In this document: positions 2,971-24,498 of the stretch, in pieces | Layout: each line of letters starts with the position of its first letter | Numbering within the stretch: the stretch's first letter is position 1 | Source of the DNA: a virus | IMG/VR virus record: IMGVR_UViG_3300045996_000681 | Span: 1 to 38,448 of that record | Strand: one strand, 5' to 3' | DNA: 38,448 nucleotides | Made by a program: the position numbers and the translations under genes | The notes under the pieces: model-generated | What the model was told of the DNA's origin: nothing | What the model saw: the letters and a program-made list of their open reading frames with translations, nothing else | The model's database searches: none

Positions 2971-3284
2971 GCGTCGCCTCGCAGGTACGCGGCGACCATC
3001 GCGGCCTGGTGAGCGTGCCTGCTGGCGTACCCGTGGGCGTCGCCCGCAGGGCAGCACAGGCCGTCATGGTCGGCGCACGACATCCGGTCGCTGTCGTGGT
3101 CCCGCAGCACGCCCGCGATCCCGTCGACGTCGTCCGCCACGACGGCGAGGAGCGTCCGTGCCCTGTCTCTGACCATCGCGCGCGCCCACTGCTGCTGGTC
3201 TGCTCGCGAAGGGCTCACGGTGTCGTCCCAGGCCCAAGGATCCAGCGCCCGTGCGACGCGCTCCGTCAGGCTCTCGCCGCTCAT
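2967..3284 (-). CDS. hypothetical protein (helical, Cys/His-containing C-terminus)
   Basis: A 105-residue protein. The first two-thirds look helical (ERVARALDPW..., ARTLLAVVADDVDGIAGVL), the last third has clustered His and Cys (SCADHDGLCC...HGYASRHAHQ) that could hold a metal. The ATG at 3284 is preceded by GAGGAGGGG and overlaps the upstream stop. Similar proteins (start MSGESLTERVARAL...) occur in actinophage early regions; function unknown. Confidence 0.7.
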   Translation of the reverse strand: MSGESLTERVARALDPWAWDDTVSPSRADQQQWARAMVRDRARTLLAVVADDVDGIAGVLRDHDSDRMSCADHDGLCCPAGDAHGYASRHAHQAAMVAAYLRGDA

Positions 3285-11667: not shown

Positions 11668-11889
11668 TTAGGCGTCGTGTGACCAGTAGCGGTCGGTGTC
11701 GTGGTTCCCGGCCCATGCGTCGCGGAACGGTGCCGGGGTGACGTCGGGTGGGATCTCGCCGGGGACCCACATCCACTGGGGGGCGCCGGTGGGGTGTGTG
11801 GGTTCGCCATCCAGTGTGTCGGGGTGGTCTGACATTGGCAGGACGGGCGGTGTGAGCCTGCGGACGATCCGCGGTGTGATCCGGTTCAT
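11668..11889 (-). CDS. hypothetical 73-residue protein
   Basis: A Pro/Trp-rich protein (QWMWVPGEIPPDVTPAPF) with a His/Asp-rich tail, preceded by a basic start. ATG 11889 overlaps the repressor stop by 4 bp, so it is expressed with the repressor; an internal ATG at residue 19 is an alternative start. Because it lies directly behind the repressor it may belong to the immunity region. Function unknown. Confidence 0.55.
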   Translation of the reverse strand: MNRITPRIVRRLTPPVLPMSDHPDTLDGEPTHPTGAPQWMWVPGEIPPDVTPAPFRDAWAGNHDTDRYWSHDA

Positions 11890-12119
11890 CGCTGGATCCC
11901 GTTGTTCGCGGCGGTGGACTGGATCTCGAGGCTGGTGGTGCCGAGGACGCTCGCGATCTTGTCGAGTTCGTCGAGGTCGAATGCCTTCATCCCGTTGAGT
12001 CGGCGGGAGAGGGTTGCGCGGGGGATGCCGGTGGTGGTGGCGAGGTCGCGGAAGCTGATGCCGGCGATGGTGATGCGGCGCTGGACTTCCTTCGCGACTC
12101 GTGTCTGGCTGGGTGTCAT
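11886..12119 (-). CDS. small XRE-family HTH regulator, candidate immunity repressor
   Basis: A 77-residue DNA-binding protein of Cro/C1 type. The HTH lies at about residues 21-45 (GISFRDLATTTGIPRATLSRRLNG), followed by a helix DLDELDKIASVLG. This is essentially one domain, Cro-sized, so it may be either a repressor or a Cro-like antagonist. The ATG at 12119 has no Shine-Dalgarno; a TTGACA box with ideal spacing would place the transcript start at or next to the ATG, so a leaderless mRNA is likely. A perfect inverted repeat sits in that promoter. Location beside the divergent recombinase module fits an immunity switch. Confidence 0.75.
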   Translation of the reverse strand: MTPSQTRVAKEVQRRITIAGISFRDLATTTGIPRATLSRRLNGMKAFDLDELDKIASVLGTTSLEIQSTAANNGIQR

Positions 12120-12125
12120 GAGTAC

Positions 12126-12154
12126 AGCGTGGCCCATTTGGGCCGGGGTGTCAA
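12126..12154 (-). promoter_or_regulatory. repressor promoter with inverted-repeat operator
   Basis: On the minus strand, a TTGACA -35 box (12154-12149) is followed after exactly 17 bases by a poor -10 (CACGCT, 12131-12126), six bases before the ATG. The spacer holds a perfect inverted repeat GGCCC-N4-GGGCC (12131-12144). Occupied by a protein, it would block the promoter, so autoregulation by the HTH protein is likely. The same repeat occurs at 23229-23242. Confidence 0.6.
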
Positions 12155-12498
12155 GGGTGAGATTCCTCGAGGATCGCCGACACCCGGTTGAGCTGGTCGG
12201 TCGTGAGCGCGTCGGCCCAGTTCCCGAATCGGGTGAGGCCACGCAGGCGGTCGCGGGCGGCACGGAGGTCGTCGTGTGCGGCGAGAGACTCGGTCGTGAA
12301 GATGCGCTGGGCGTTGTGCGTCACGCCCTTCTCTCGCCCACTGTCGGCGTGGAACGCCGTCTCACTGCCCCACGCGTTCGCGATGTAGACGTAGGTCCGT
12401 CCGACGCGGGAGATGAGGGCGGCCTTGTCCTCGACCCCCTTGTAGACGGGCCGACGGAGGATGACCTCTTGCCCGACGTGCCACTGCTGAATGCTCAC
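12151..12498 (-). CDS. hypothetical protein, beta-barrel-like N-terminus
   Basis: A 115-residue protein, first gene of the leftward early transcript. Residues 1-45 (QQWHVGQEVILRR, ALISRVGRTYVYIAN) look like a small SH3/KOW-type beta barrel; the rest is helical with Arg-rich AARDRLRGLTRFGNWADAL. GTG start with AAGGAG five bases upstream. Its stop codon lies inside the -35 box of the repressor promoter. Similar proteins are common and uncharacterised in actinophages; nucleic-acid binding is a guess. Confidence 0.7.
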   Translation of the reverse strand: MSIQQWHVGQEVILRRPVYKGVEDKAALISRVGRTYVYIANAWGSETAFHADSGREKGVTHNAQRIFTTESLAAHDDLRAARDRLRGLTRFGNWADALTTDQLNRVSAILEESHP

Positions 12499-12538
12499 GG
12501 TGTCTCCTTGGTGTGTCTGGCTGGCGTGGCCCTAACGG

Positions 12539-12566
12539 TCGACAGGGCTACGGGTGGTGCTACTCT
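12539..12566 (+). promoter_or_regulatory. promoter of the recombinase operon
   Basis: TCGACA (12539-12544) and TACTCT (12561-12566) are separated by 16 bases, close to the actinobacterial housekeeping consensus. A degenerate copy of the repressor-type repeat (GGCCC-TAAC-GGTCG, 12528-12541) overlaps the -35 side. Downstream, CCCACC/GGTGGG (12586-12591 with 12597-12602) can form a leader hairpin before the first gene. The region also separates the two divergent operons and would be a natural place for attP, but no att core is recognisable. Confidence 0.5.
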
Positions 12567-12633
12567 GGCAGCGTATACCAAAGCGCCCACCAACGGGGTG
12601 GGATGCTCGATCCGAACGGGAAAGCGGGAACCA

Positions 12634-12807
12634 ATGTTGTCAACGCGCGACATCTCGCACGACACGGTCAAGGCGATCTCGTGGCTGCTGGGCTACGACC
12701 CCGACGACGTGACCATGATCCGCGTGGAGCCGCTTGAGGTACGGGCGTTCCTCAAGTCCGCCGCGGATCACCACCCGGTCGTTCACTACGTGGCGCGTGA
12801 AGGATGA
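12634..12807 (+). CDS. 57-residue protein coupled to the recombinase
   Basis: A small acidic protein (DISHDTVKAISWLLGYDPDDV, then VEPLEVRAFLKSAADHH) with helical character. It starts at ATG 12634 with a moderate purine stretch upstream and ends in a 4-bp ATGA overlap with the recombinase start. The coupling suggests a partner such as a recombination directionality factor, but it has no HTH and no known excisionase pattern. Confidence 0.6.
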   Translation: MLSTRDISHDTVKAISWLLGYDPDDVTMIRVEPLEVRAFLKSAADHHPVVHYVAREG

Positions 12808-13433
12808 GGGCGCTCGGGTACCTGCGGGTCAGCACAGCCGAGCAGGGCGACTCCCGCGCCGGCCTCGAGTCCCAGGAACGCGTCATCCGAGACGAGTGCA
12901 CCCGCCGCGGCTGGGAGCTCGTGGACATCCGTCGTGACGTGGCGTCGGGGAAGTCGATGCGGCACCGGCCCGAACTCGCGAAGACGCTGCGTGCGCTTGC
13001 GGCCGGGGAGGCGGATGCACTCGTCGTCGCCAAGCTCGACCGGCTGTCGCGCTCCGTTCTCGACTTCGCCTCGGTCATGGAGACCGCGCAGGAGCAGAAG
13101 TGGTCGCTCGTCGTCCTCGACCTAGGCGTCGACACCACGTCGACGAACGGGAAGCTCATCGCGCACATCATGATTGCGCTCGCCCAGTGGGAGCGGGAGC
13201 TCATCGGCGACCGCACCCGGTCTGCACTGCGTGCGGTGCGCGCTCGAGGGACTCGCCTCGGCCGGCCGTCCGGGGTCACGGAGGACACGGTGCGGCTCAT
13301 CCGTACCCTGCGGCGGACGGGGATGTCGTGGCAGCGGATCGCGGACGCACTCACGTCGGAGGGTGTGGCGACGGCGCAGGGTGGGCGGTGGCACGCGGCG
13401 ACCGTGCGGAAGGTGCACGACAAGGCGGCCTAG
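12804..13433 (+). CDS. serine recombinase, resolvase-sized
   Basis: A 209-residue site-specific recombinase. The catalytic serine is S10 in YLRVSTAEQ, with the family Arg residues in KLDRLSRSVLDF (around 73-84) and ERELIGDRTRSAL (around 132-144). The C-terminus is a short HTH domain (GRPSGVTEDTVRLIRTLRRTG, then SWQRIADALTSEGV) of the resolvase/invertase type. Large serine integrases have 450-600 residues, so this is unusually small for a phage integrase, yet it is the only recombinase in the window and sits in the standard integrase position. It may integrate the phage or only resolve or invert DNA. Confidence 0.88.
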   Translation: MRALGYLRVSTAEQGDSRAGLESQERVIRDECTRRGWELVDIRRDVASGKSMRHRPELAKTLRALAAGEADALVVAKLDRLSRSVLDFASVMETAQEQKWSLVVLDLGVDTTSTNGKLIAHIMIALAQWERELIGDRTRSALRAVRARGTRLGRPSGVTEDTVRLIRTLRRTGMSWQRIADALTSEGVATAQGGRWHAATVRKVHDKAA

Positions 13434-13528
13434 CTCTGGGTGGCGGCGCGATACTGGGCGCGTAGGCGTTCGTTGCGCGCCAGGCGGCGGCACTCGGCAC
13501 TGCACCACTTCGGCCAGCATCGAAGGAG
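13430..13528 (-). pseudogene. possible 3' remnant of a zinc-finger gene
   Basis: On the minus strand the last 30 codons before a TAG at 13430 read CWPKWCSAECRRLARNERLRAQ, a pattern typical of the C-terminus of small phage zinc-finger proteins (fCS-x2-Crr...). No in-frame start exists near it, and further upstream the frame runs antisense to the DUF6221 gene. It may be what is left of a gene cut by arrival of the recombinase module. Chance is an alternative. Confidence 0.3.
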
Positions 13529-13533
13529 TTCTG

Positions 13534-13602
13534 ATGGAGACCCCGAGGCGCCGCGCCCTCCGCGAGTACGTGAAGGAGGTGGATCGTGACGACGTTGCCT
13601 GA
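13534..13602 (+). CDS. 22-residue upstream ORF
   Basis: A micro-frame with an excellent ribosome site (GAAGGAG, five bases before ATG 13534) coding for a basic peptide, METPRRRALREYVKEVDRDD as its main part. It overlaps the start of the next gene by 17 bases, and its end carries that gene's AAGGAGGT site. It may be a translation-coupling leader rather than a functional peptide. Confidence 0.35.
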   Translation: METPRRRALREYVKEVDRDDVA

Positions 13603-13978
13603 GTTCCTGCTCGCCCGGATCGCCGAGGATCACGCACGGGCCGAGATGGACGGGGCGAACGCCTATGCCGGGTTCATGTACGGGCTCGCCGGCTGGAAGC
13701 CGGAGGCGCCGGCGTGGGCATACACGGCTGTGCAGCTCCGCGAGGTAGACCACGCCGCCCGTGTCCTCGCCGAGTGCGAGAGCAAGCGGCGGATCGTGGA
13801 GCTGCACCGAAATCGGTCATACCCTCAGCCAGTAAACCCCTCCGACGGGCCGGCGTACACCGAGGAAGAGCTTTGCTGCGACGTGTGCGGCTGGGCCGAG
13901 TACGCGTGCGACACTCTCCGCCTACTCGCCCATCCGTACGCCGAGCACCCCGACTTCCGACCCGAGTGGAGGGCGTGA
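13586..13978 (+). CDS. DUF6221-family protein
   Basis: A 130-residue protein recognised by its start (TTLPEFLLARIAEDHARA), the central DHAARVLAECESKRRIVELH and the end DTLRLLAHPYAEHPDFRPEW, all hallmarks of the DUF6221 group found in actinobacteria and their phages. A C-x2-C (CCDVCGW) is added near residue 97. The biochemical role is not known. GTG start with a near-perfect AAGGAGGT six bases upstream. Confidence 0.85.
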   Translation: MTTLPEFLLARIAEDHARAEMDGANAYAGFMYGLAGWKPEAPAWAYTAVQLREVDHAARVLAECESKRRIVELHRNRSYPQPVNPSDGPAYTEEELCCDVCGWAEYACDTLRLLAHPYAEHPDFRPEWRA

Positions 13979-13979
13979 C

Positions 13980-14177
13980 GTGGACGAGATCCCCGGGCTC
14001 GAGAACGGCACATGCGACCTTTGCGGGCAGCAGTTCCTCCGGAGCGCAGATGACTGCTGGCATCCCTGGGACGTCCCTGCCGCCTGCCCGCCAGAGGTGC
14101 TGCGCGACGGTGTGATGCAGCCCGAGTGGGGCGGACCGGGACGCCCCGGCCGCGAGCACTTCCGACCGCGGGCATGA
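13980..14177 (+). CDS. small Cys/His protein
   Basis: A 65-residue protein with C-x2-C (CDLCGQQF) and a C-x-H (CWHPW) that together could bind one zinc ion, then a Pro/Gly-rich tail. GTG start one base after the preceding stop, with TGGAGGG upstream. Last gene of the plus-strand module; the terminator starts right after its stop codon. No family recognised. Confidence 0.65.
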   Translation: MDEIPGLENGTCDLCGQQFLRSADDCWHPWDVPAACPPEVLRDGVMQPEWGGPGRPGREHFRPRA

Positions 14178-14182
14178 CGAAA

Positions 14183-14219
14183 GCCCCGCACCGCCCTGGG
14201 GGAAGGGGCGGTGCGGGGC
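14183..14219. terminator. bidirectional terminator between convergent operons
   Basis: A 13-bp perfect stem, GCCCCGCACCGCC (14183-14195) with GGCGGTGCGGGGC (14207-14219) and an 11-base loop. It lies six bases past the plus-strand module and 19 bases past the stop of the last minus-strand late gene. Read leftward it is followed by TTTCGTC, so it can serve the minus strand, and it can stop both transcripts. Confidence 0.85.
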
Positions 14220-14237
14220 GTCTGTGGGTGGTGCGTG

Positions 14238-14513
14238 TTATCGGACGTCGACGACGTCGGCGTCACGGTACGCGACTTCGGGTTCGGCTGTCGCGCGGAT
14301 GGTTGCTGTGGCTCGTCCGATCGGCAGGACCACGGTGCCGGCGGGGTTGCTGGTTGCTTCGGGGCCGGCGAGCAGGACGCGTGCGCGACCGTCAGCGACC
14401 GTCATGGGGTGCCAGGTCGTGCCGTCGTCGAGGCTGAGCTCGACGACGCCGCCATCGGGGATCTCGGACAGCGGCCAGTACAGGAACTCGCGGCCGCGGC
14501 GGTCGAGGATCAC
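14238..14513 (-). CDS. hypothetical protein, last gene of the late region
   Basis: A 91-residue beta-rich protein (REFLYWPLSEI, then GGVVELSLDDGTTWHPM and an Ig-like run of strands). It looks like a small structural beta sandwich, possibly a tail fibre accessory or chaperone. GTG at 14513 overlaps the esterase gene stop and has AGGAGG five bases before it. Function not known. Confidence 0.7.
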   Translation of the reverse strand: MILDRRGREFLYWPLSEIPDGGVVELSLDDGTTWHPMTVADGRARVLLAGPEATSNPAGTVVLPIGRATATIRATAEPEVAYRDADVVDVR

Positions 14514-16435
14514 AGATTCCTCCTGGGGTAGCTGACGGTGAACGGGTTGCGAGACGGGCTGCCCGCGATGACGAGGTCGCCCGGGTCGGGGAGAACGGCT
14601 GGCTCCTCCGGGTTGCGTCCGATACCGGCCACGGAGACCGCCACCGATGTGGTCGAGCCGCCGGTGCGCACCGATGCGGCGACCCGAGCGCCGGCCCCGA
14701 CCGTGACGACCTGGGCCGTGACGATGCTCGAGCCGATGCGCCGTGCGACACTGGACCCGACCGTCCCGACCGATACGCCGACCGCGCTGCCACCTGTGCC
14801 GGCGGTGGGGTGAATGCCGGCCCCGACGGCTGTGACGATCGTAGACGCGACAGAACCAGCCCGGCCGACCTTGCGCCCGGCCTGGACGGTTGCGGCCGTC
14901 GTGAGGGCAACGGACGAGCCTGAGCCGCGCTTCTGGCCGGACGCGGTCACGCCCGCTGTGGTTGCGGCGACCGATCCGGCGCGTCCGACCTTGCGACCCG
15001 CGCCAACCACGCCGGCCGTGACGCTGGCCGTCGAGCTCGCGCGGGCGACCTTTCGTCCCGCCTCGACGTCATTCGCCGTGACGGATGCGACCGAGCCGCC
15101 CGACCGCACAGACGCCGAGGACCCGACCGCTGCCGTCTGCATCGTCGTTGACGAGCCGATAACCTCGGTGCGGTACCGGTTCGCCCGGTCAGCTACCCAC
15201 GCGTTCCGGAGCGTGTACCCGGCCGTCAACATGTGGATGGCGTCAGCGTTCCACAGGCCGGTCTCGTCGCGGCCGTCGTGAATCCACGCGGTCGTGTCGA
15301 CGTACCGGGCGAGCGGGCGTGCGACGACTTCCTGACGCAGCCACTCGGTTGCGGTCGCTCGAGCGGCCGTGTTCGGGTTGCCCTGGATCCCGAACCACAG
15401 GACCCGGTTGGCGTCCCCGATCGCGTCGAGAATCCCCTTGACGCCATTTCGAAACGTCGCCTCAGGGACGCCTGAGCTGTTCCCGCCGAGGTTGATGACC
15501 CAGAGTGCGGGTTCGCTGCCGAGAGCTGTGCGTGCTGCTGCGACGTTCTGGATCGTTGTCGTGCCGGTAGAGTCGGCGGTCGTGAGTGTCTTGCCGCCGA
15601 CGCCATGGAAGTAGATGTCCGCGGCGGTCGTCCACCCGACACGCGCGAGCTGGGTCCGGATGTTCGCCTCGCCGCCGAGCTCGAACTGCGAGTCGCCGAT
15701 GAGGGCGATCTTCCCGAGCGCAGGGACTCGACGTACGTCGACGACGTCGGCACCGATGGGTGCGTACCAGTCGGTGGCGTGGGCCATGAACCGGACGTCG
15801 TCGATGCTGACGGATGCTGCGGTGCCGGCGGACGTGCCCTTGCCGAAGTAGAGGTTGTTGACCTGGACGGTGCCGGTGTTGACGGTCGCGCCGGACGTGA
15901 ACGTGGCGTCGGGGGTGGTGCCCTCGACGTTGGTTCCGTAGAACAGCCGGTAGGACAGGGTGCCGTTCGACGTGGTGGAGCCCTTGATGCACTCGACGGA
16001 CAGTCGCGCCTTTGTGCCGAGCGGCACCGTGGCGGTTGACACTGAGCCGCTGACGCCGGAGCCGGCCGCGTTCTGCAACGACACGGTCCCGGTCGTCCCG
16101 ATGACGGCCTTGAACCCGGCGGTGGATGCGCCGGTTGCCGTCATGATCGGGAACGACCCACCGGTCGGGTACGCCGGGATGGTGAAGTACACGTCGAGCA
16201 CCTGCCGGTCACCTGCGTCCGGGGTGAACCGGAGGTAGGTGCCGGCGGTGCTGTTCGACGTGATCTTGACGGACCGTGTGCCGTGAGCTGCCCAGTCGTC
16301 GTCGTAGGTCATCGTGTGACCGGCGGTGATCTGGACGAGGTTGGCCGCGGTGTTGCCGAGGCCGACGTCTCCGCTGTTCGCGGTGGTGACCGGCTGGTCG
16401 ATGGGGCCGTGCTCGAAGTTGTTGCTACCGGGCAC
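14510..16435 (-). CDS. tail protein with SGNH-hydrolase domain and 20-residue repeats
   Basis: A 641-residue protein. Residues 1-225 form a beta-sandwich, carbohydrate-binding-like region. Residues about 240-415 are an SGNH/GDSL-type hydrolase: GDS at 247-249 (catalytic S249), LGGNS with N319, and DAIH with D398/H401 as the acid-base pair. Residues about 441-605 are eight degenerate repeats with a 20-residue period (AGRKVGRAGSVA type). Such enzymes on phage tails deacetylate or cleave esters of surface polysaccharide. GTG start with AGGAGG. Placed at the end of the tail module behind the lysis genes; adsorption role inferred. Confidence 0.8.
   Translation of the reverse strand: MPGSNNFEHGPIDQPVTTANSGDVGLGNTAANLVQITAGHTMTYDDDWAAHGTRSVKITSNSTAGTYLRFTPDAGDRQVLDVYFTIPAYPTGGSFPIMTATGASTAGFKAVIGTTGTVSLQNAAGSGVSGSVSTATVPLGTKARLSVECIKGSTTSNGTLSYRLFYGTNVEGTTPDATFTSGATVNTGTVQVNNLYFGKGTSAGTAASVSIDDVRFMAHATDWYAPIGADVVDVRRVPALGKIALIGDSQFELGGEANIRTQLARVGWTTAADIYFHGVGGKTLTTADSTGTTTIQNVAAARTALGSEPALWVINLGGNSSGVPEATFRNGVKGILDAIGDANRVLWFGIQGNPNTAARATATEWLRQEVVARPLARYVDTTAWIHDGRDETGLWNADAIHMLTAGYTLRNAWVADRANRYRTEVIGSSTTMQTAAVGSSASVRSGGSVASVTANDVEAGRKVARASSTASVTAGVVGAGRKVGRAGSVAATTAGVTASGQKRGSGSSVALTTAATVQAGRKVGRAGSVASTIVTAVGAGIHPTAGTGGSAVGVSVGTVGSSVARRIGSSIVTAQVVTVGAGARVAASVRTGGSTTSVAVSVAGIGRNPEEPAVLPDPGDLVIAGSPSRNPFTVSYPRRNL
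14621..15115 (-). repeat. 20-codon repeat array in tail esterase gene
   Basis: About eight in-frame, diverged repeats of 60 bases. A Gly recurs at residues 460, 480, 500, 520 and 540 and, less strictly, 560 and 580; units follow the pattern GRKVGRAGSVA then a Thr/Val/Ala-rich strand. The regular period suggests a stacked beta structure or stalk. Confidence 0.75.
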
Positions 16436-16444
16436 GCGGGCCTC

Positions 16445-17722
16445 CTACGCCTTGATGTACGGGACGATCGCGCGGCCAGTGTCAGAGAACGGGCCTTGCG
16501 ACGGGTCCCACTCGACGACACCGTTCAGGACGACGCCGATGCGGTCGGACGAGAACATGACCTGTGCGCCTGGCTCGTTCCGTACGACGCCGTTCGCGTC
16601 ACGCCACCCGCGCTTCCTGATCCGCACCTGCTCGAGCACGATGCCGTCGCTGAGGGTGTTGCCGTTGTTCTCGTAGGCGTTCACCGTCGCTGCGGATCCG
16701 CCCATCCAGCATCGCAGGTACTTGATGTCGCGAAGCCGGGTGCGTTCCGGGGTGTCGCGGTAGCGGGAGTCGCCCTCGTCCTTGAGCATGGCGTTTGCGT
16801 TGAACCCGCAGGGCGTCCGGGTGCCGATCGGTCCGGGGTCGATGTCGGTGCCGGCTCCCTTGCGCGGCATGTCCCCGCCGAGCTCGCACTCCTCGTACAG
16901 GGTCTTCCCGAGCGTGCCCCACTGCGAGTTGTCCGAGTGCGTGTTGCCGCCGCGGGGGTCGGTCGGGTTGTTCTGCACGTCGTAGAACTCCGTCGGCTGG
17001 AGCTGGTTGGCCCAGAATGACTCGGCCTGCAACGTGCGGTAGATGTGCGTCGTGGCGATGACACCGGTGGCCGTTGCGCCGGGTGCGGCGGCGTGGTTGT
17101 AGTTGTCGCAGGAGCCCTGGTTGCGGCAGTACCGGAGCTGGATCAGGGCGCCCCAGCATCCGAACGTGAAGATCGTCGCCCATCGTTCGGCGCCCTCGTG
17201 CCGCTTCCAGTACCCGGGGTCGATGTCGGAGTGCTCGAAGACGATCGGGGTGGAGGAGAAGTTGGTGACGAGGGCGGCCGACGACCACTGGACGGACCCG
17301 GACGAGTTGAGGCGCGGGCGGCTGTTCCGTTGCCGCATGATCTCGTCGGGGTTGTTCCCGGCGACCCAGGAGTTCCAGATCTGCGGGACCGTTGTGGTGG
17401 ACGCAGGCTTCACGACGGCGCACCGGTAGATCGTGTTCCGGGCGACGTAGTTCTGCGGGATGTTGAAGACGCGGCCGCCGTGCCCGTCCGCGACGCCGTC
17501 CTCGTACCGGTAGCCGGGCGGCGGTGCACCTTCGTATCGCCAGTCGAGGGGGATCGGTGCCAGGAGCCCGGTCATGCCGTCGGCGCGCGGGTAGAACGTC
17601 CCCTGAGCGAACGACTCCCGGTAGGCGGCGAGGTCGGTGAGCTCCCGGGTGAACATGAGCCCGATGTCACGGACCGCGATTCCCCCGCCGCGGTCCGTGA
17701 CTGTGAGCCGGCCGGTCGTCAC
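16445..17722 (-). CDS. tailspike-like protein (predicted beta-helix)
   Basis: A 425-residue protein. After an N-terminal region that contains RYEDGVADGHGG, many short strands with Asn and aromatic residues recur (NTIYRCAVV, VFEHSDID, LYEECELGG, LRCWMGG), the spacing typical of right-handed beta-helix, pectate-lyase-like proteins. Six or more Cys are unusual for a phage tail protein. No catalytic signature could be assigned. GTG start in a GTGA overlap with the gene before it, between two other candidate carbohydrate-active tail genes. Confidence 0.65.
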   Translation of the reverse strand: MTTGRLTVTDRGGGIAVRDIGLMFTRELTDLAAYRESFAQGTFYPRADGMTGLLAPIPLDWRYEGAPPPGYRYEDGVADGHGGRVFNIPQNYVARNTIYRCAVVKPASTTTVPQIWNSWVAGNNPDEIMRQRNSRPRLNSSGSVQWSSAALVTNFSSTPIVFEHSDIDPGYWKRHEGAERWATIFTFGCWGALIQLRYCRNQGSCDNYNHAAAPGATATGVIATTHIYRTLQAESFWANQLQPTEFYDVQNNPTDPRGGNTHSDNSQWGTLGKTLYEECELGGDMPRKGAGTDIDPGPIGTRTPCGFNANAMLKDEGDSRYRDTPERTRLRDIKYLRCWMGGSAATVNAYENNGNTLSDGIVLEQVRIRKRGWRDANGVVRNEPGAQVMFSSDRIGVVLNGVVEWDPSQGPFSDTGRAIVPYIKA

Positions 17723-19110
17723 GGCGCGGTGAACTCGAAGACGGCCTGGGCCCCGGTCATCGAGACGCGGCGGATGGCGGAGGGGGCGATGCCCGGGATG
17801 GTGAGGGTCACGTCCGCGACGTCGACGTACGCGGGGACCTCGGGCTTGGCCGCCCACGTGAACGGGATTTGCGCGGTGGCGACATCACCACTGCGGTCCT
17901 GGACGGTCAGGGTTCCCGTCACGGTTACCGCCGGGACGGCGGGGACGGCCGGCTTGGAGTCCGGGTCGCTGTAGGTGACCGTGACGCGGACGACCGTCCC
18001 GGTGACGTACCCGCCGGTCGGCATCGTCGGGCTGAGGGTGTGGTTCGTGATGACGGGAGCTGTCACGGTCGTCGTCCTCCGGTTGCGCTTGGCGCACATC
18101 GCGGCGAACGCGACTGCGACCGGGTTGGCCGACGGCGGGACCGTCATCGGCAGGGTGTTCGATCCGGGCCGCGTGAACGACCCGTGCTTGGATGCCTCGC
18201 CGGTCGGCTTCGTGAAGAAGGAGACGCCCTCGAGCCCGGGTATCTCGTTGACGGCCGTGTCGACCGTCCCAAGCCACGCGACCGCGCCGGCCGCATCGCC
18301 GACCATGACGTCCGGGTTCGCCCGGGTGTCCCATGCGAGGGCCGTCTCTGCGAGGACGAACCGGGTGATGCCGCCGCTGAGCATCGCGGTGATGTGCGGG
18401 TCGACCTTCGCCCGGAACGGCTCAGGCTTGTACCCGCCCGCACCATCGGAGGTGAAGCGGAAGTACGTGTCCCACAGGCCGACGACGTAGCGCATCTCCG
18501 TCGACGTGAGCGCGGACGTGATCCCGTCCCACCACCACCACGACTGGTCGGCCATACCGCCGGTGAGGAGCAGCCCACCGACGCCGAGCTCGTCCGGGTC
18601 GGCGCCCATCTCGATGGCGGTCCGGGCAGCGACCTTGCAGAACCGCTGGATCGCTGCCCGGTACACGGCCCGGTCAACCGCGGGCCCGTAGTTGTCCTGC
18701 TCGTGGTTCAGCGCCCGGTAGAACCGGTACCGCTTCCCCGCCGGCCGGTTCGACCCGATCGGGAGCTGGCGCACCATCGTGGCGAACGCGGCATCATGCG
18801 TCCCCGCGGCGATCGCGGCAAGGGTCGCGTCAGAGTAGCTGTCTGCGCCACCGGTTCCGACCGCCCACGTGCACACGAGCGACACCGGACCGAGCGCCTC
18901 GAGCGTCTTCCCCTGCGTCGACGTCGCCGACCAGCCCGCCGAGCCGAGCCCCAGGTAGTTGCGGTACCCGCGGTTCAGCGGTGCCGTCGCGGCGACGGCG
19001 TCACGCAGGTACGCGTCGAGGCCGGCCGTGAACGTGGAAAGGCCCGCCGGAGTGAGCGCCTCCACGTCGTCGAACCCGTCGTACCCCAGAACCCACGCAT
19101 CTGCCCCCAT
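17719..19110 (-). CDS. tail-associated glycoside-hydrolase-like protein
   Basis: A 463-residue protein. The first about 300 residues read like a TIM-barrel glycosidase: a strand ending WVLGYDGFDD, a surface helix, RFYRALNHEQD with a candidate acid/base Glu (about residue 137), ELGVGGLLLTGG, and FVLAETALAWD with a second Glu (about 255) as candidate nucleophile, as in GH26-like enzymes. The C-terminal about 130 residues are Ig-like beta domains rich in Pro, Thr and Val. The ATG at 19110 was chosen; a TTG at 19119 is equally unsupported by ribosome sites. A host surface polysaccharide is the likely target. Confidence 0.65.
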   Translation of the reverse strand: MGADAWVLGYDGFDDVEALTPAGLSTFTAGLDAYLRDAVAATAPLNRGYRNYLGLGSAGWSATSTQGKTLEALGPVSLVCTWAVGTGGADSYSDATLAAIAAGTHDAAFATMVRQLPIGSNRPAGKRYRFYRALNHEQDNYGPAVDRAVYRAAIQRFCKVAARTAIEMGADPDELGVGGLLLTGGMADQSWWWWDGITSALTSTEMRYVVGLWDTYFRFTSDGAGGYKPEPFRAKVDPHITAMLSGGITRFVLAETALAWDTRANPDVMVGDAAGAVAWLGTVDTAVNEIPGLEGVSFFTKPTGEASKHGSFTRPGSNTLPMTVPPSANPVAVAFAAMCAKRNRRTTTVTAPVITNHTLSPTMPTGGYVTGTVVRVTVTYSDPDSKPAVPAVPAVTVTGTLTVQDRSGDVATAQIPFTWAAKPEVPAYVDVADVTLTIPGIAPSAIRRVSMTGAQAVFEFTAP

Positions 19111-19120
19111 GACGGTCAAG

Positions 19121-19462
19121 TTACACGGCCGCGTGGTTGATGCCGGTGGACGCGCCCGTGAGGACGTACTGGCCCGCGGACGCGTACACCTCGGAGGTGA
19201 GGTCGCCGCCGCCGTGGTTCGTGCCCGCGGTCAGGGCCGTGAACCCGCGCCACCCAGCGACGGTCGAGCCGGCGGGGATGTCGAACGTCTGGTCGGCGGC
19301 GAGGCGAACCTGACCGTTCGACGCAGCCGTCCACGTGACAGCCTTCCGCGCGTACGCCCCACCGGAGAGCTCGGTGCCGGACCCGTTGACGAGCCCGACA
19401 TGCGTAATCACTGACGCGCCCTGCGTCGCGATCGCGTTGAGGTACGAGGTAGCCATAGCCAT
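19121..19462 (-). CDS. small tail protein
   Basis: A 113-residue all-beta protein (VITHVGLVNGSGTELSGGAY, FDIPAGSTVAGWRGFTAL, then GQYVLTGAS). This pattern is common to a family of small phage fibre-associated proteins. It would form a beta sandwich on the tail tip. ATG with GGAGG eight bases upstream. Confidence 0.65.
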   Translation of the reverse strand: MAMATSYLNAIATQGASVITHVGLVNGSGTELSGGAYARKAVTWTAASNGQVRLAADQTFDIPAGSTVAGWRGFTALTAGTNHGGGDLTSEVYASAGQYVLTGASTGINHAAV

Positions 19463-19481
19463 GCGTCAGTCCTCCGTGGGG

Positions 19482-20573
19482 TCAGGCGGCTTCGAAGATG
19501 CCCATGAACCAGAGGTTCGAGGCGGGGAAAGCGGTTGTGTCGATGACGGCCGGGTCGACGGAACGAAGCCCGCCGCCGCGCTTGACGTACGCGCGCAGGG
19601 CGGTGCTCGGGGTGGTGATGAGTGCGCCGGCCCAGTCGCGGAACTCGACGGTGAACGCGGTCGGGGACAGGGCGCTGTTGCCGACGTTCGGGACGTTCCC
19701 TCCGCCGCGGCCCGCCACTGAGACGTTGATCTGCGGGGTGGTGTCGGTTCCGAGCGCCAGGGTCGGGTGCGTGAGGGTGAGGACACCGGCGGAAAACGAC
19801 GGGGTGAACACGCCGTTGAACGACACCCAGTTCGTGCCGTCATAGTGGACGTAGTCGGCGTACTCGGGCCACTGCCGGGACAGGCGGATCGTCGCAGCAG
19901 ACTGGGTGACGGACGCGCCGGCGAAGATCCCGGCGCGCGCGAGGGTCTCGTCGGGCGTGACGACGAACGACACGACCTTGGTGGCCGAGATGCCCGGGTA
20001 GTTGATGACGATCTCGCCGCCGTTCGCCGCGCTGTACGTGACCGACCCGACGTTCGTCGATTGGTGGTCCGCGTCGGTGATTAGCGCCCACCCAGACCCC
20101 GTGTTCCGGATGACGCCGGCGACGACGCGCCGCTGAGTCCCGTCGCTCGCCCGCAGCGCCCCGTCAACACCGAGAGCTGTGCGGGCTGCGGCTGCGGTGG
20201 TTGATCCCGTGCCGCCGCGGTTGACCGGCTGCGTCGCCGTCGTCTGGACGTAGCGTGCGTCCGCTGCGGTTCGGGTTGCGGTCGGCGAGCCGAGGTACCC
20301 GGCGACCTGGGAGTCGGACGGACCCGCGGACTCGATCGGCCAGACGTCGATGAACGTCGGCCCGACCGTCAGCCGCAGGCGGCCCGGGTGCGCGGACGTG
20401 AAGTCCGCGCGCCCGGACGCGTCCGTCACCCCGTACGGGCCCGTGACGGCGCCCTGCGTGATGTCGACGGGCAGCGAGGTCGCCGGGTCCGAGACGGTGA
20501 ACCGGGTGTTTGCCGCGAGTCGCAGCGAACCCCCGAGCTCGGCGTAGACGGCGACGTGCTGGTACGTGGGCAC
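19482..20573 (-). CDS. minor tail protein / tail fibre
   Basis: A 363-residue protein. The N-terminal domain (1-85) is beta-rich with a GPYGVTDASGRADF turn; residues about 105-140 contain ARYVQTT and NRGGTGSTTAAAARTALG, a linker signature very frequent in phage tail fibres. The C-terminal half is a long series of beta strands, probably the receptor-binding part. GTG start with GAGAGGAG six bases upstream. First structural gene after the holin in this transcript. Confidence 0.75.
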   Translation of the reverse strand: MPTYQHVAVYAELGGSLRLAANTRFTVSDPATSLPVDITQGAVTGPYGVTDASGRADFTSAHPGRLRLTVGPTFIDVWPIESAGPSDSQVAGYLGSPTATRTAADARYVQTTATQPVNRGGTGSTTAAAARTALGVDGALRASDGTQRRVVAGVIRNTGSGWALITDADHQSTNVGSVTYSAANGGEIVINYPGISATKVVSFVVTPDETLARAGIFAGASVTQSAATIRLSRQWPEYADYVHYDGTNWVSFNGVFTPSFSAGVLTLTHPTLALGTDTTPQINVSVAGRGGGNVPNVGNSALSPTAFTVEFRDWAGALITTPSTALRAYVKRGGGLRSVDPAVIDTTAFPASNLWFMGIFEAA

Positions 20574-20576
20574 GCG

Positions 20577-20687
20577 CTACTCCTCTCGAGCGTTGGCGCG
20601 TTCGATCGCCGCAGCGACCTCGGCCTCGTAGTCCTCGTCCCAGCGCTCGGCGTCAGCGCGCCGGGACGGGCGCGACGGGGCGGCCAT
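20577..20687 (-). CDS. 36-residue protein behind the holin
   Basis: A short, highly charged helical peptide (RRADAERWDEDYEAEVAAAI). Its ATG shares a base with the holin stop (TGATG), and its stop lies three bases before the next gene start. There is no Shine-Dalgarno, so translation would depend on coupling. Real by position and composition; function unknown. Confidence 0.5.
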   Translation of the reverse strand: MAAPSRPSRRADAERWDEDYEAEVAAAIERANAREE

Positions 20688-20944
20688 CAGTGGAGGCCGT
20701 CGCGAGGGTTGACGGCGGTGACCTTCTCGTTGGCGAGCGACGGGCCGGGGTTGTCGCCGACCTTCGACGCGATGAGCGCCTTGAGCAGCGACGCGAGACC
20801 GGCGAGACCGGCGGTCGACAGGACCGCGCGCCAGTCGGCCGTCAGGAGGTCGAAGCCGTCTGCGGTCAGGAGGGCGAGGACCGCGCCAGCGATGGACGCG
20901 AGGACGCGCTCGAGCGTCGCCGTCCAGAAGGCTCGGTTGAGCAT
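20687..20944 (-). CDS. holin, r1t-like
   Basis: An 85-residue membrane protein that would make lesions in the cytoplasmic membrane to release endolysin. Two hydrophobic helices (about 12-30 and 40-60, AVLSTAGLAGLASLLKALIA) are followed by SKVGDNPGPSL, which is typical of the r1t-type holins of actinophages. ATG with GGAGA upstream. It lies two genes behind the endolysin. Confidence 0.8.
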   Translation of the reverse strand: MLNRAFWTATLERVLASIAGAVLALLTADGFDLLTADWRAVLSTAGLAGLASLLKALIASKVGDNPGPSLANEKVTAVNPRDGLH

Positions 20945-20968
20945 GGGGGTTCTCCGATCAGGGGATGG

Positions 20969-21154
20969 TCAGGCGCCGACCTTGTTGGCGATGGCGCCGA
21001 GCTGGCGGGTGTGACCGTCGCACACGGCCTTGAGGTTCGCGACCTGCGCCTTGAGCTCGACCAGGAGCTGAAACATCGACTTCTGGTCGGGCGTGGACAG
21101 GCCGCCGAAGAACACGCCGTCATACAGGGCCTGGATCTGGTGCTCGGTGGTCAC
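20969..21154 (-). CDS. hypothetical protein in the lysis cassette
   Basis: A 61-residue helical protein (ALYDGVFFGG, then SMFQLLVELKAQVANLKAVC) with heptad character, so probably a short coiled coil. It starts at GTG 21154, overlapping the endolysin stop, with AAGGAGA upstream. Its place between endolysin and holin points to a lysis accessory protein. The sequence has no membrane segment. Confidence 0.65.
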   Translation of the reverse strand: MTTEHQIQALYDGVFFGGLSTPDQKSMFQLLVELKAQVANLKAVCDGHTRQLGAIANKVGA

Positions 21155-22032
21155 GGGGTCTCCTTGACGGTGGTGAGGGTGAGGTTCGCGAGAGCATCCT
21201 GTGCCCCGCGTCGTGCGGCGTCCTCGATCGCGGCAGGGTCGAGCCCGGCGCCGATCGCGAGGGACTGGACAGCGGACGTCAGCGCGGCCACCTGTGCCGT
21301 GAGCGTCGCGGCGAGGGTTTTCGCGTCGGCGACCTCCTGAATCAGCGACACCGCCCCACCGTCGCGCTGCACAGGCCACAGGACCGTGTCGCGGGCTGCG
21401 TCTGCTGCCTTCGCGGCGTACTGCTCAGTCGCCGCGAAGATCTGGTTGAGGGGCCGGCCGCCCGGGGTGTCGGTGCCGCCCTTCGTGAACGCGTCCACCA
21501 GGTACGTGATACCGGCGAGGACGCGGTCCTGCTCGTGGTCGTCAAGCGCCATGAGGAAACCCTTCATGAGTGGGGTCGGGGCGTTGAGGTCGGGGACGTT
21601 CGGGACGTCGCCGAGGGAGCCGCCGCCGTTCGAGATCGGGCGCGCCTCGCTGATGCCCCACGGGGACCGGTCCTGCTCCCACGTGGACCCGTGACGGATC
21701 GACACGTGCACGTGCCCGTGATGTGCGTTCGGGCCGGTGTAGGGACGTGACGCGAACCCGTAGATCCGCTGCCAGATCCGGCCGGCATGGATCACGTAGT
21801 TGGTGCGGTGGTCGAGGATCGCGACGGCGACGAGGTGCCAGGGGTCCATGCCGTCCTTGTCGAAGTCGCGCGCCCGGATGACTCCGATGACGGGCGGGGC
21901 CGGGTTGTGATCCGACGGACGTGCCTGATGCGACATGTCCCCGATCGCACCGTCCGACGTCTTGTCACGTCCCGGCCAACGCGCATTGACCTCCGCGAGG
22001 AGCTGTTGCAGCGACGGGGCCACATACGCCAT
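21151..22032 (-). CDS. endolysin, M15-like peptidase
   Basis: A 293-residue lysin. Residues 1-115 are an M15/DD-carboxypeptidase-like domain: ARPSDHNP with H42, VIRARDFDKDG with D56 and the HHGHVHV motif (H107, H109) form a zinc site that would cut the peptidoglycan stem peptide. Residues about 150-293 are a linker and a helical C-terminal half (ALDDHEQDRV..., AATLTAQVAALTSAVQ), perhaps for oligomerisation or wall attachment; no known wall-binding repeat seen. ATG start, TGATG overlap. Confidence 0.88.
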   Translation of the reverse strand: MAYVAPSLQQLLAEVNARWPGRDKTSDGAIGDMSHQARPSDHNPAPPVIGVIRARDFDKDGMDPWHLVAVAILDHRTNYVIHAGRIWQRIYGFASRPYTGPNAHHGHVHVSIRHGSTWEQDRSPWGISEARPISNGGGSLGDVPNVPDLNAPTPLMKGFLMALDDHEQDRVLAGITYLVDAFTKGGTDTPGGRPLNQIFAATEQYAAKAADAARDTVLWPVQRDGGAVSLIQEVADAKTLAATLTAQVAALTSAVQSLAIGAGLDPAAIEDAARRGAQDALANLTLTTVKETP

Positions 22033-22757
22033 CAGGGGGCCTCCTCAGACGCGGCGAGCCAGCACGGGCCGCCCGTTGTCGATGTCGTCCCGTCCGTGTA
22101 CGTGACGAGCCATGTCGCGTCTTCCTGGCACTCAAGCGACGCAATCCCGCGACCGTCCGCGCCGTCCGCACCAGCCGCTCCGGTGGCCCCCGTCTCACCG
22201 CGAGCACCATCCGCGCCGCGGCAGCCGTTGTTTGCCGCGCAGTACTCAGCATGTACTCCGTTGAGGATCGCGAGCAGCTCCTCGTAGGGGCGGACGCCGC
22301 CAGGGTCTCCCTTGTCACCCTTGTCGCCCTTGATCGACTCGCCTGGGGCACCGTCTTCTCCCTTGGCCCCGTTCGCCCCCGGCTCTCCCGGATCGCCCTT
22401 GTCCCCCTTATCACCCTTCGCGCCTGGCTTCCCCTCGGGGCCGGCCGGACCTGTGGGACCGGGGATTGGCGTCATGGTGGGAACAGGGGACACGGGCTGC
22501 TCGGCGACCTTCTGGGCGCGGTCGCAGACGTTCTGGTCGGAGACGATGACGTCGACGTCGAGGCATGCGCGTCGGACCTGCTCGGCGAGCGAGACGGCGT
22601 TGTCTGCTGCTGCCTCGGCGGCCATCTCGGCCTCATGGCGCAGCCAGACGTTCCAGGCGAGCATGCCCACGATGATGGCGATGAGGACAGCGTTTACCGC
22701 ATTCCGCCGACCCTTGCCGCGTACGACCTTCTCGACCCGCTCATTGGTCTCCGTCAC
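22032..22757 (-). CDS. membrane-anchored collagen-like protein
   Basis: A 241-residue protein with one transmembrane helix near the N-terminus (about 21-39), a helical segment, then two collagen-type stretches of Gly-X-Y repeats (about 100-154 and 180-204) separated by a globular part with two Cys, and a small C-terminal domain with a Cys pair. It would form a trimer standing on the outside of the membrane. GTG at 22757 is preferred for its G-rich site; GTG 22766 is an alternative. It sits directly upstream of endolysin and behind another membrane protein, so it may take part in lysis or in surface exclusion. Collagen repeats are otherwise usually found in tail fibres. Confidence 0.75.
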   Translation of the reverse strand: MTETNERVEKVVRGKGRRNAVNAVLIAIIVGMLAWNVWLRHEAEMAAEAAADNAVSLAEQVRRACLDVDVIVSDQNVCDRAQKVAEQPVSPVPTMTPIPGPTGPAGPEGKPGAKGDKGDKGDPGEPGANGAKGEDGAPGESIKGDKGDKGDPGGVRPYEELLAILNGVHAEYCAANNGCRGADGARGETGATGAAGADGADGRGIASLECQEDATWLVTYTDGTTSTTGGPCWLAASEEAP

Positions 22758-23091
22758 GCCGCCCACCCTCGATCGCTAAGAGCCGCTGCCTTGCAAGGTG
22801 TGCCGCCTCCTCGGCGGCGAACCGCCGCCGACGTTCGTCCTCAAGCTCCTGTAGGACTTTCTGGTTCGACTCCCGCAGGCTCTTGAGGCTGTCCTCTACC
22901 CGGCCAAGCTGTCGCGCATGTTCCGCGTTGAGATTCTGAACGTTCTCGAGGTTCTGCGCCTGGATGTCTGCGACGTCGTCTCTGTACTGCTTGCGGTCCT
23001 GCGAGTTGACTCGCAGGAGGTAGATGACGACAACGAGGAGAACGCCTGCGGGGCCAAAGGATGGCGCTAGTGAGGTCAGGGCCGGATCCAC
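22741..23091 (-). CDS. membrane protein with coiled coil
   Basis: A 116-residue protein: one transmembrane segment (about 12-27, AGVLLVVVIYLL) followed by a long charged coiled coil (30-110). This resembles the small membrane proteins that accompany holins in actinophages. GTG start with GGAGGGGGG five bases before it. It is probably the first real gene of the lysis transcript; its start lies 170 bases from the divergent gene at 23264. Confidence 0.75.
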   Translation of the reverse strand: MDPALTSLAPSFGPAGVLLVVVIYLLRVNSQDRKQYRDDVADIQAQNLENVQNLNAEHARQLGRVEDSLKSLRESNQKVLQELEDERRRRFAAEEAAHLARQRLLAIEGGRRDGDQ

Positions 23092-23130
23092 TGAGGCCCC
23101 CCTCCACGCGCGCAGGCCGCCTGTGGACGG

Positions 23131-23169
23131 CTAGGCACGGCGGGGTGCTGTAGTCGGCCGCTCGTTCAT
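23131..23169 (-). other. possible 12-residue leader ORF in the lysis-operon leader
   Basis: The divergent gap 23092-23263 has, on the minus strand, an ATG at 23169 with AAGGGGG upstream and a stop 12 codons later. A second G-rich stretch (GGGGGGCAAACG before an ATG at 23185) lies just before it. It could be a leader peptide or coincidence. I see no convincing -10/-35 pair for the leftward transcript in this gap. Confidence 0.2.
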
Positions 23170-23228
23170 CGTTGCCCCCTTGCATCGTTTGCCCCCCACG
23201 GGCACGGGTGAACCCGGAAACTGCCTAT

Positions 23229-23257
23229 GGCCCAAACGGGCCACACCCTGCTAGTAT
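23229..23257 (+). promoter_or_regulatory. leaderless promoter with repressor-type operator
   Basis: A TAGTAT -10 box (23252-23257) stands six bases before ATG 23264, which fits leaderless transcription. Where the -35 would be lies the perfect inverted repeat GGCCC-AAAC-GGGCC (23229-23242), the same palindrome arms as in the repressor promoter at 12131-12144. A bound protein would cover the -35 side, giving repression or cI-like activation. Confidence 0.6.
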
Positions 23258-23263
23258 TGTCTC

Positions 23264-23662
23264 ATGGACATCAGAGGAGCACTCGCAGGGGCAGTCATCA
23301 CCACGATCGCCGGCGCAGGCATCATGGCCGGCATCATCACGGCCAACGCCGATAACGAGCCCACACCGCAGCCCACCGTCACCGCACCCGTCACCATCGC
23401 GACGATCACGCCCGAGCCCGTCGTCACGCCCGAACCCGTCGTCACCCCGGAGGTCGTCGTGCCCGAGCCCGTCGTCGAGCAGCCCGCGCCCGCCGTCGTC
23501 GAGCCCGCCCCGGTCGCGCCCGAGCCGGTGGTCGAGCCCGAGCCCGCCGAGGAGCCGGTCATCGAGGTCTCTGTCTCGGGCCCTGACGAGGGCGCCCCCT
23601 ACGGCCGCCTGAACGGCATCCCGCAGCCCGCGCCCGCCCCGGACGGCAACTCGGGCGACTAG
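23264..23662 (+). CDS. lone plus-strand membrane-anchored Pro/Glu/Val-repeat protein (moron candidate)
   Basis: A 132-residue protein coded against all its neighbours. Residues 5-27 form one hydrophobic helix (signal anchor or uncleaved signal, after a short MDIRGAL start); about 33-112 are repeats of PEPVV/PAPVV type, extended and wall-spanning like TonB linkers; the last 20 residues are Gly/Pro-rich. Likely exported, with the rod crossing the cell wall. The stop overlaps the stop of the convergent tail gene (CTAG). No ribosome site, so a leaderless mRNA is expected. Such independent genes in late regions are often expressed in lysogens and alter the host surface; here that is inference. Confidence 0.75.
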   Translation: MDIRGALAGAVITTIAGAGIMAGIITANADNEPTPQPTVTAPVTIATITPEPVVTPEPVVTPEVVVPEPVVEQPAPAVVEPAPVAPEPVVEPEPAEEPVIEVSVSGPDEGAPYGRLNGIPQPAPAPDGNSGD

Positions 23663-24498
23663 CGCAGGAAGATCGCCTGGGCCTCCGTGTAAGCGCGACT
23701 CGCCGCACCGGAGGCCCAGGCGTTCCCCTGTGTGTGGATGCGGCATCGAACGTGGATCTGCGCCCCAGCCGTCAGCCCGGTCAGGAGGGACGACCGCGCC
23801 GTAGCGAGCATCGTCGGTAGCCCCGGCTGCGCCAGTCCGAACACCTCACGCGAGGTCGTCCCGTTGATGCCCGCGGACAGGTAGAGGTAGTCGATCGAGC
23901 CGGACGTGTTCGAGTGCCCGGCCGAGACCGTCAGGTAGACCAGTGCCTGCGTGAACCCCGCCGGGACCGTGATGTACCCGTTCGCGAAGTCCTGGTCCGT
24001 CGTCGTCGTAGCGAAGCCGGTCTGACTCTGAGAGACCCGGCCGACAGCGACCGGAGCCGCAAGAGCCTCGTTGTCGATGATGCCAGCGGGCAGTGACAGG
24101 GTCCCGGCGATCGCCATCGCGCCGGAGAATGTCGCATTTCCGGTGACCCCGAGGGTGCCGCCGATCGTCGTCGCTGCGTCCACGTTCAGGGTGCCGTCGA
24201 TGTCGGTCGACCCGGTGATGTGCAGGGCGTCGTCGATCGTCGTGGAGCCGGCAATCGTCGTCGTACCGTCGATCGTCGTGTCGCCGCCGATGTGCGTCGT
24301 ACCCGTGATCTCGGCCGTCTCGGTGACGTCGAGCGGGCCGTTCACCACGAGCTCACCGTCGACCGTCACCTGTCTCGGAGCCGTAACGGACATGCCCGAG
24401 CGCGCGTAAGGGGACGCGTTCTCGTCACTGATCCGCCGCCGCTGCTCGGCTCGCAGCTTGCGGATCAGGCCCTGGTCCGTCTCAGGCAGCCGGCTCAC
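23659..24498 (-). CDS. tail protein with repetitive beta-strand domain
   Basis: A 279-residue protein. After a helical start, residues about 45-140 are short repeats with the pattern [TG]-x-T-x-I-x-G (TTHIGGDTTIDGTTTIAGSTTI...), like a parallel beta-solenoid; the C-terminal about 130 residues are a beta-sandwich (FTQALVYLTVSAGH, then LTGLTAGAQIHVRCRIH), probably the receptor-contacting head. ATGA overlap with the hub-like gene. Last gene of the upstream tail transcript. Confidence 0.75.
   Translation of the reverse strand: MSRLPETDQGLIRKLRAEQRRRISDENASPYARSGMSVTAPRQVTVDGELVVNGPLDVTETAEITGTTHIGGDTTIDGTTTIAGSTTIDDALHITGSTDIDGTLNVDAATTIGGTLGVTGNATFSGAMAIAGTLSLPAGIIDNEALAAPVAVGRVSQSQTGFATTTTDQDFANGYITVPAGFTQALVYLTVSAGHSNTSGSIDYLYLSAGINGTTSREVFGLAQPGLPTMLATARSSLLTGLTAGAQIHVRCRIHTQGNAWASGAASRAYTEAQAIFLR

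Follow-up and report, generated by a model that had tools for sequence, protein, structure and literature searches.

Two promoters in a siphophage genome

The window (the whole 38,448-bp IMG/VR virus record analysed) carries on its minus strand a siphophage gene order of terminase, portal, capsid, tape measure, minor tail genes and holin, followed by a plus-strand gene for a small serine recombinase and then by a minus-strand early operon, which runs downwards from position 12119 with P0001 first, then a RecE-like exonuclease, WhiB, a methylase and DnaB. The serine recombinase is the only recombinase in the phage, and no large integrase is present. Capsid relatives in viral contigs reach at most 83% identity, save one partial match at 89%, and the capsid protein is 71–78% identical in three genome contigs titled Arthrobacter MAG, Microbacterium and Marmoricola MAG. 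The following features lie at and around the head of the early operon.

11886..12119, minus strand: P0001, a 77-aa regulator of the Cro/C1 type (XRE), with the helix IPRATLSRRL
12126..12154, minus strand: leaderless promoter of P0001, read directly as TTGACA (12154-12149), a 17-nt spacer, CACGCT (12131-12126), 6 nt and ATG(12119)
12131-12144: candidate operator site 1, in the spacer of the P0001 promoter; GGCCCATTTGGGCC as read on the plus strand and GGCCCAAATGGGCC in the sense of the minus-strand gene, a perfect 6+6 palindrome with a 2-nt centre
12151..12498, minus strand: gene with a ProQ C-terminal-like domain (PF24203, E 1e-20), upstream of P0001
12804..13433, plus strand: small serine recombinase of resolvase/invertase size, 209 aa (PF00239, E 9e-37; phrog_125 DNA invertase), divergent from the early operon

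P0001 matched the Pfam families HTH_26 (35.7 bits) and HTH_3 (34.7 bits) above their cut-offs, domains which in a small protein mark the Cro/C1 (XRE) type, as well as phrog_4583 (transcriptional repressor, E 3e-14), and a family HMM found no other small XRE in the window. Its promoter has a perfect -35 box, a weak -10 box and a spacer filled by the palindrome. The ProQ C-terminal-like gene adjoins P0001 and has its own stop codon inside the -35 box of the P0001 promoter.

The second promoter belongs to a lone gene, P0002, which runs in reverse to the late operon in which it is embedded.

22741..23091, minus strand: late gene on one side of the slot, 116 aa, with one hydrophobic segment followed by a coiled-coil-like part
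23229-23242, plus strand: candidate operator site 2, GGCCCAAACGGGCC, from -35 to -22 relative to the P0002 ATG
23252..23257, plus strand: -10 box of P0002, TAGTAT, 6 nt before ATG(23264), read directly
23264..23662, plus strand: P0002, 132 aa, an N-terminal hydrophobic segment followed by a Pro/Val/Glu-rich tail
23671..23725, plus strand: 17-nt inverted repeat, a terminator-like hairpin without a T run, directly after the P0002 stop and inside the converging minor tail gene
23659..24498, minus strand: minor tail gene flanking the slot, whose homologue flanks the slot in relatives too

The coding status of P0002 is supported by codon-position GC (GC3 0.91). The open reading frame at 22841-23185 was considered as a slot neighbour and set aside as probably not a gene, the gene there being 22741-23091. 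No separate -35 hexamer is recognisable at the P0002 promoter, and a simple sigma-70 consensus scan detected neither this promoter nor that of P0001. An earlier sequence-only reading had placed the ATG six bases after the -10 box at both genes, which direct reading confirmed, and the leaderless starts that it proposed for P0001 and P0002 are plausible from this spacing.

The palindrome in the window and in other phages

The same reading had located the repeat GGCCC-N4-GGGCC at 12131-12144 and 23229-23242 and had seen no further copy. Both positions were right, and an exact pattern search of the 38,448 bp with the spacing fixed returned these two copies only, where 0.22 would be expected; at least two copies occurred in 1 of 100 shuffles of the window. 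The likeness of the two sites exceeds that account, as in the sense of their genes (GGCCCAAATGGGCCAC at site 1 and GGCCCAAACGGGCCAC at site 2) they share the 16-bp consensus GGCCCAAAYGGGCCAC with one difference, a single half-site change of C for T at site 2. The window holds no third copy of this 16-bp form at up to two mismatches. None of 300 third-order Markov simulations of the window produced the 14-mer GGCCCAAAYGGGCC, while about one occurrence per window would be expected for the loose form GCCCRNNYGGGC. A scan of viral contigs with the exact 16-mer gave 24 single, scattered matches that look like chance. A degenerate third match, GGCCCTAACGGTCGAC, with three mismatches, lies at 12528-12543, where the recombinase operon may have a plus-strand promoter; taken alone, it is not above chance.

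P0001 used alone as a query retrieved no relatives from viral contigs, and no ortholog was found above about 45–47% identity, the best short segments reaching 50–55%. Since P0001 has no close homologue, distant homologues were used for the operator comparison; an 8-row XRE alignment was too divergent for scanning. Palindromes with a CCR-NN-YGG core lie near the start codon of related small XREs, such as ATGCCCACTTGGGCAT in G026 and GTCCATATGGAC in G022, while the XRE of Mycobacterium phage Sparky has CCATATGG and CCGTATGG and that of prophi62-2 has CCGTTCGG once and CCGTTTGG twice. Of 18 small XREs whose helix is of the TLxRRL type, 9 had the CCRNNYGG core between -28 and -18, compared with 4 of 53 other XREs and 11 of 330 control ORFs; the enrichment over the control ORFs (Fisher 3e-8, or 3e-7 without the window) was counted on a set including the early homologues on which the core was first spotted, so that the P value is not fully independent.

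Closer matches were found in three records. The XRE of L186 has exactly GGCCCAAACGGGCC at -25, with a second palindrome at -4 and an integrase-like ORF adjoining; L222 has GCCCAAACGGGC and GCCCGAATGGGC between a divergent XRE pair whose helix, IPRTTLMRRL, is near that of P0001; and the XRE promoter of the unrelated phage L277 holds the same 14-mer as site 1, GGCCCAAATGGGCC. Scanning viral contigs with TTGAC-N1-9-GCCCAAAYGGGC provided an independent check, yet with a pattern picked after L186 and L222 were seen: it recovered 6 XRE promoters, which serve at least four different proteins with helices IPRTTL, IPRMTL or IPFTTL, and in each of them the ATG lies 15 nt past the palindrome. The other 52 of the 58 matches lay outside XRE promoters, mostly in coding or chance contexts. 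The same 12–14 bp palindrome thus precedes its own XRE in unrelated phages and in one genome element, with a helix that is mostly IPRxTLxRRL, and the P0001 promoter has the CCRNNYGG-centred palindrome that marks an autoregulatory operator of this XRE type.

This comparison ties the palindrome, as a type of operator, to the TLxRRL-type recognition helix. Because the same palindrome takes the same promoter place before independent XREs with near-identical helices, both palindromes of the window are very probably operators of P0001, and the predicted binding of P0001 at both is well supported. That the regulator binds both sites had been proposed earlier, together with a search for the palindrome in related phages; the search succeeded at XRE promoters (L186, L222, L277 and the scan matches), and the proposal gains the association between operator and helix while standing as a prediction from sequence. 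Phages with the GCCCAAAYGGGC operator carry the palindrome once or twice, at the XRE, one of them with a distant copy in a coding frame. Among relatives with their own XRE operators, promoter copies were found at the XRE only and none was remote; by this measure, only this phage places its second copy at another gene, 11 kb distant.

A variable slot in the late operon

P0002 has no family match in Pfam or PHROGs, no homologue by BLAST and no match in 26 related records. The hairpin after it is 94% complementary (-52.5 kcal/mol, z -6.3). The gene has its own promoter, a terminator (by structure only) and an orientation independent of the operon, the marks of a moron, and is best explained as a moron-like gene in a variable slot of the late operon. 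Its product is probably a surface protein, either membrane-anchored or exported, and its anatomy, with the analogy to P22 sieA and the Butters genes discussed below, would suit an envelope or exclusion protein.

Reverse-strand genes also occupy the corresponding slot in phages that have the adjacent minor tail genes in common with the window. In L132, L140 and L146 a ribbon-helix-helix (RHH) gene is followed by a protein with a hydrophobic N-terminus or a Pro-rich protein. In L133, L135 and L137 a single protein joins the RHH to a hydrophobic segment and an outer domain. An HMM built from the slot RHH sequences matched in the slots of L132, L133, L135, L137, L139, L140 and L144-L146; the same HMM found no RHH gene in the slot of the window, which in this respect is not P22 immI-like. 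The two slot RHH proteins compared with PHROGs, from L133 and L140, are Arc-like repressors (phrog_6506), and the RHH promoter in L133 and the related L307 has a palindrome of its own, GGTGTATTACACC. P0002 and the look-alike slot protein of L140 gave no significant BLAST match (E 0.39), so these slot proteins are alike in anatomy only and homology is not claimed.

Several further arrangements were observed in this slot and elsewhere. The one-frame fusions of an Arc-like RHH, a hydrophobic segment and an extracytoplasmic domain (minus strand; L133 8667-9176, L135 3047-3544, L137 3733-4272) could encode membrane-tethered repressors, or have an internal start giving an exported protein. In the closest relative (L129; G001 15381-16061, minus strand) the product of the slot gene is an exported protein bearing the motif HEFGHAI, which is like that of zinc metalloproteases. 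Many phage records (L302-L330, matches near 3001) contain RHH proteins that start with MPNQPKTP, and in L313, L316, L319, L325, L326 and L329 they are followed by a lipoprotein-like protein or one with a hydrophobic N-terminus, often Pro/Ala-rich, forming a recurring two-gene cassette. In G001 (TerL 82%), which is the closest among the phages whose immunity region is readable, the repeats of that region are absent at the slot gene.

The slot of the window agrees with those of the relatives in where it lies, which way it points and what type of protein it encodes, with the XRE operator where they have a local RHH gene. It is suggested tentatively, at somewhat less than even confidence, that a slot run by an Arc-like repressor in relatives was here captured by the Cro-like switch, the RHH gene being gone and the switch operator lying on a counter-oriented envelope gene.

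Proposed regulation of P0001 and P0002

P0001 is more likely Cro-like than an immunity repressor, because it heads the early operon and its relatives are annotated as Cro or linked to an excise. The early lytic operon begins with it, and Sparky gp48 is annotated as Cro. In relatives the XRE gene leads into excise (prophi62-2 gp5, L255) or into recombination genes (L277), with another HTH gene transcribed divergently from it; a divergent partner repressor is present in L255, L259 and L277.

Both palindromes are read as operators through which Cro-like P0001 would repress its own gene with the early operon as well as P0002, leaving P0002 on without the XRE and silenced in lytic growth, an account held to be probable with moderate confidence. 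At site 1, P0001 would bind between the -35 and -10 boxes of its own leaderless promoter and repress itself and the early operon, autorepression being the natural reading of this position. At site 2 it would cover the -35/spacer region of the P0002 promoter and turn P0002 off. Repression is favoured since both operator positions overlap the promoter core. The classical position for an activator is near -42, as for lambda CI. The centre of site 2 lies about 28 bp upstream of the presumed P0002 start, too near for that position, so repression at site 2 appears more likely; the half-site change and the lack of a clear P0002 -35 box leave activation from this site as the less likely reading. P0002 would thus be expressed when the XRE is absent, in lysogeny or very early infection, possibly in an envelope role such as superinfection exclusion, and would be shut down as soon as the XRE is produced in the lytic programme, which would also avoid collision with the opposing late transcripts.

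The sequence-only reading had called P0001 a repressor that links lysogeny to the gene at 23264, a label made doubtful by the Cro position of P0001. As a lysogeny (immunity) repressor, P0001 would keep its own level low in the lysogen and P0002 off in the prophage, or on by contact with RNA polymerase. No HTH repressor that could share the operators was found among the divergent genes at 12634-13433, and the missing immunity repressor leaves room for this view, to which P0001 being the only small XRE in the window and its phrog_4583 annotation also lend weight. The view is nevertheless unlikely, as an autorepressor at the head of an operon with exonuclease, WhiB and DnaB holds the Cro position, and in the relatives the corresponding gene faces a distinct immunity repressor and leads into genes for excise or recombination.

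The remaining alternatives concern site 2. In cluster A mycobacteriophages, many asymmetric stoperators, spread across the genome away from the immunity region, stop transcript elongation (PMC9283540), and site 2, inside the late operon, could similarly be a roadblock or a decoy, with bound XRE stopping minus-strand late transcripts through the slot. This is improbable, since the site is a single palindrome and not an asymmetric element, it coincides exactly with a leaderless promoter that has a -10 box, and the window holds no further copies. That the second copy arose by chance and leaves P0002 unregulated by the XRE is more improbable still: the loose pattern is common enough to allow it, as are versions with two mismatches, but the actual 14-mer form was absent from the simulations, site 2 falls in one of the few intergenic promoter regions, and it is identical in sequence to operators found at independent XREs. 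The two sites are also oppositely oriented and flank the recombinase and tail-fibre genes, as would crossover sites of the serine recombinase inverting an 11-kb segment. This invertase-site reading was dropped as scarcely credible, since the similarity ends after 16 bp and inversion would turn late genes out of their operon; the palindrome also occurs at XRE promoters elsewhere.

Together, these comparisons suggest that a moron-like gene, in an immI-like slot whose controller varies among relatives, carries a remote operator of the phage switch protein. They provide an operator, GCCCAAAYGGGC, and a helix signature, IPRxTLxRRL, for widespread, little-studied small actinophage Cro-like proteins, a pair that would make operators and targets predictable from sequence. 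They also suggest that phages may swap controllers of a variable late-operon slot, an Arc-like repressor in some and the main switch protein here, which, if true, shows how accessory envelope genes get tied to the decision between lysis and lysogeny.

Several known systems resemble parts of this arrangement. In Salmonella phage P22, the immI region (mnt-arc-ant, sieA) resembles the slot of the window's relatives, which holds Arc-like RHH repressors with a membrane or secreted protein; the resemblance is one of layout, with no sequence homology claimed, and differs in that no antirepressor was found and that the window's slot is without an RHH gene (lost or never present) and has an XRE operator instead. 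Like P0002, the membrane defence genes gp30 and gp31 of the cluster N mycobacteriophage Butters are orphans that have hydrophobic segments and lie in a variable region, and they are expressed from the prophage in lysogeny (PMC7542560); they are other proteins at another location, and the consulted part of that source describes no remote switch operator for them. Stoperators share with the window the presence of phage regulator sites outside the immunity region, but here a single promoter carries a single palindromic site. P0001 itself resembles the Cro-type repressors of temperate actinobacteriophages, Mycobacterium phage Sparky gp48 and prophi62-2 gp5, small XREs with 38–41% identity to P0001 that lead an early or excise operon and have CCRNNYGG palindromes in their promoter; they face a divergent immunity repressor, for which no counterpart was found in the window. 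Finally, in phages with the GCCCAAAYGGGC operator the promoter copies are local only, whereas the window has one copy 11 kb off, at another gene.
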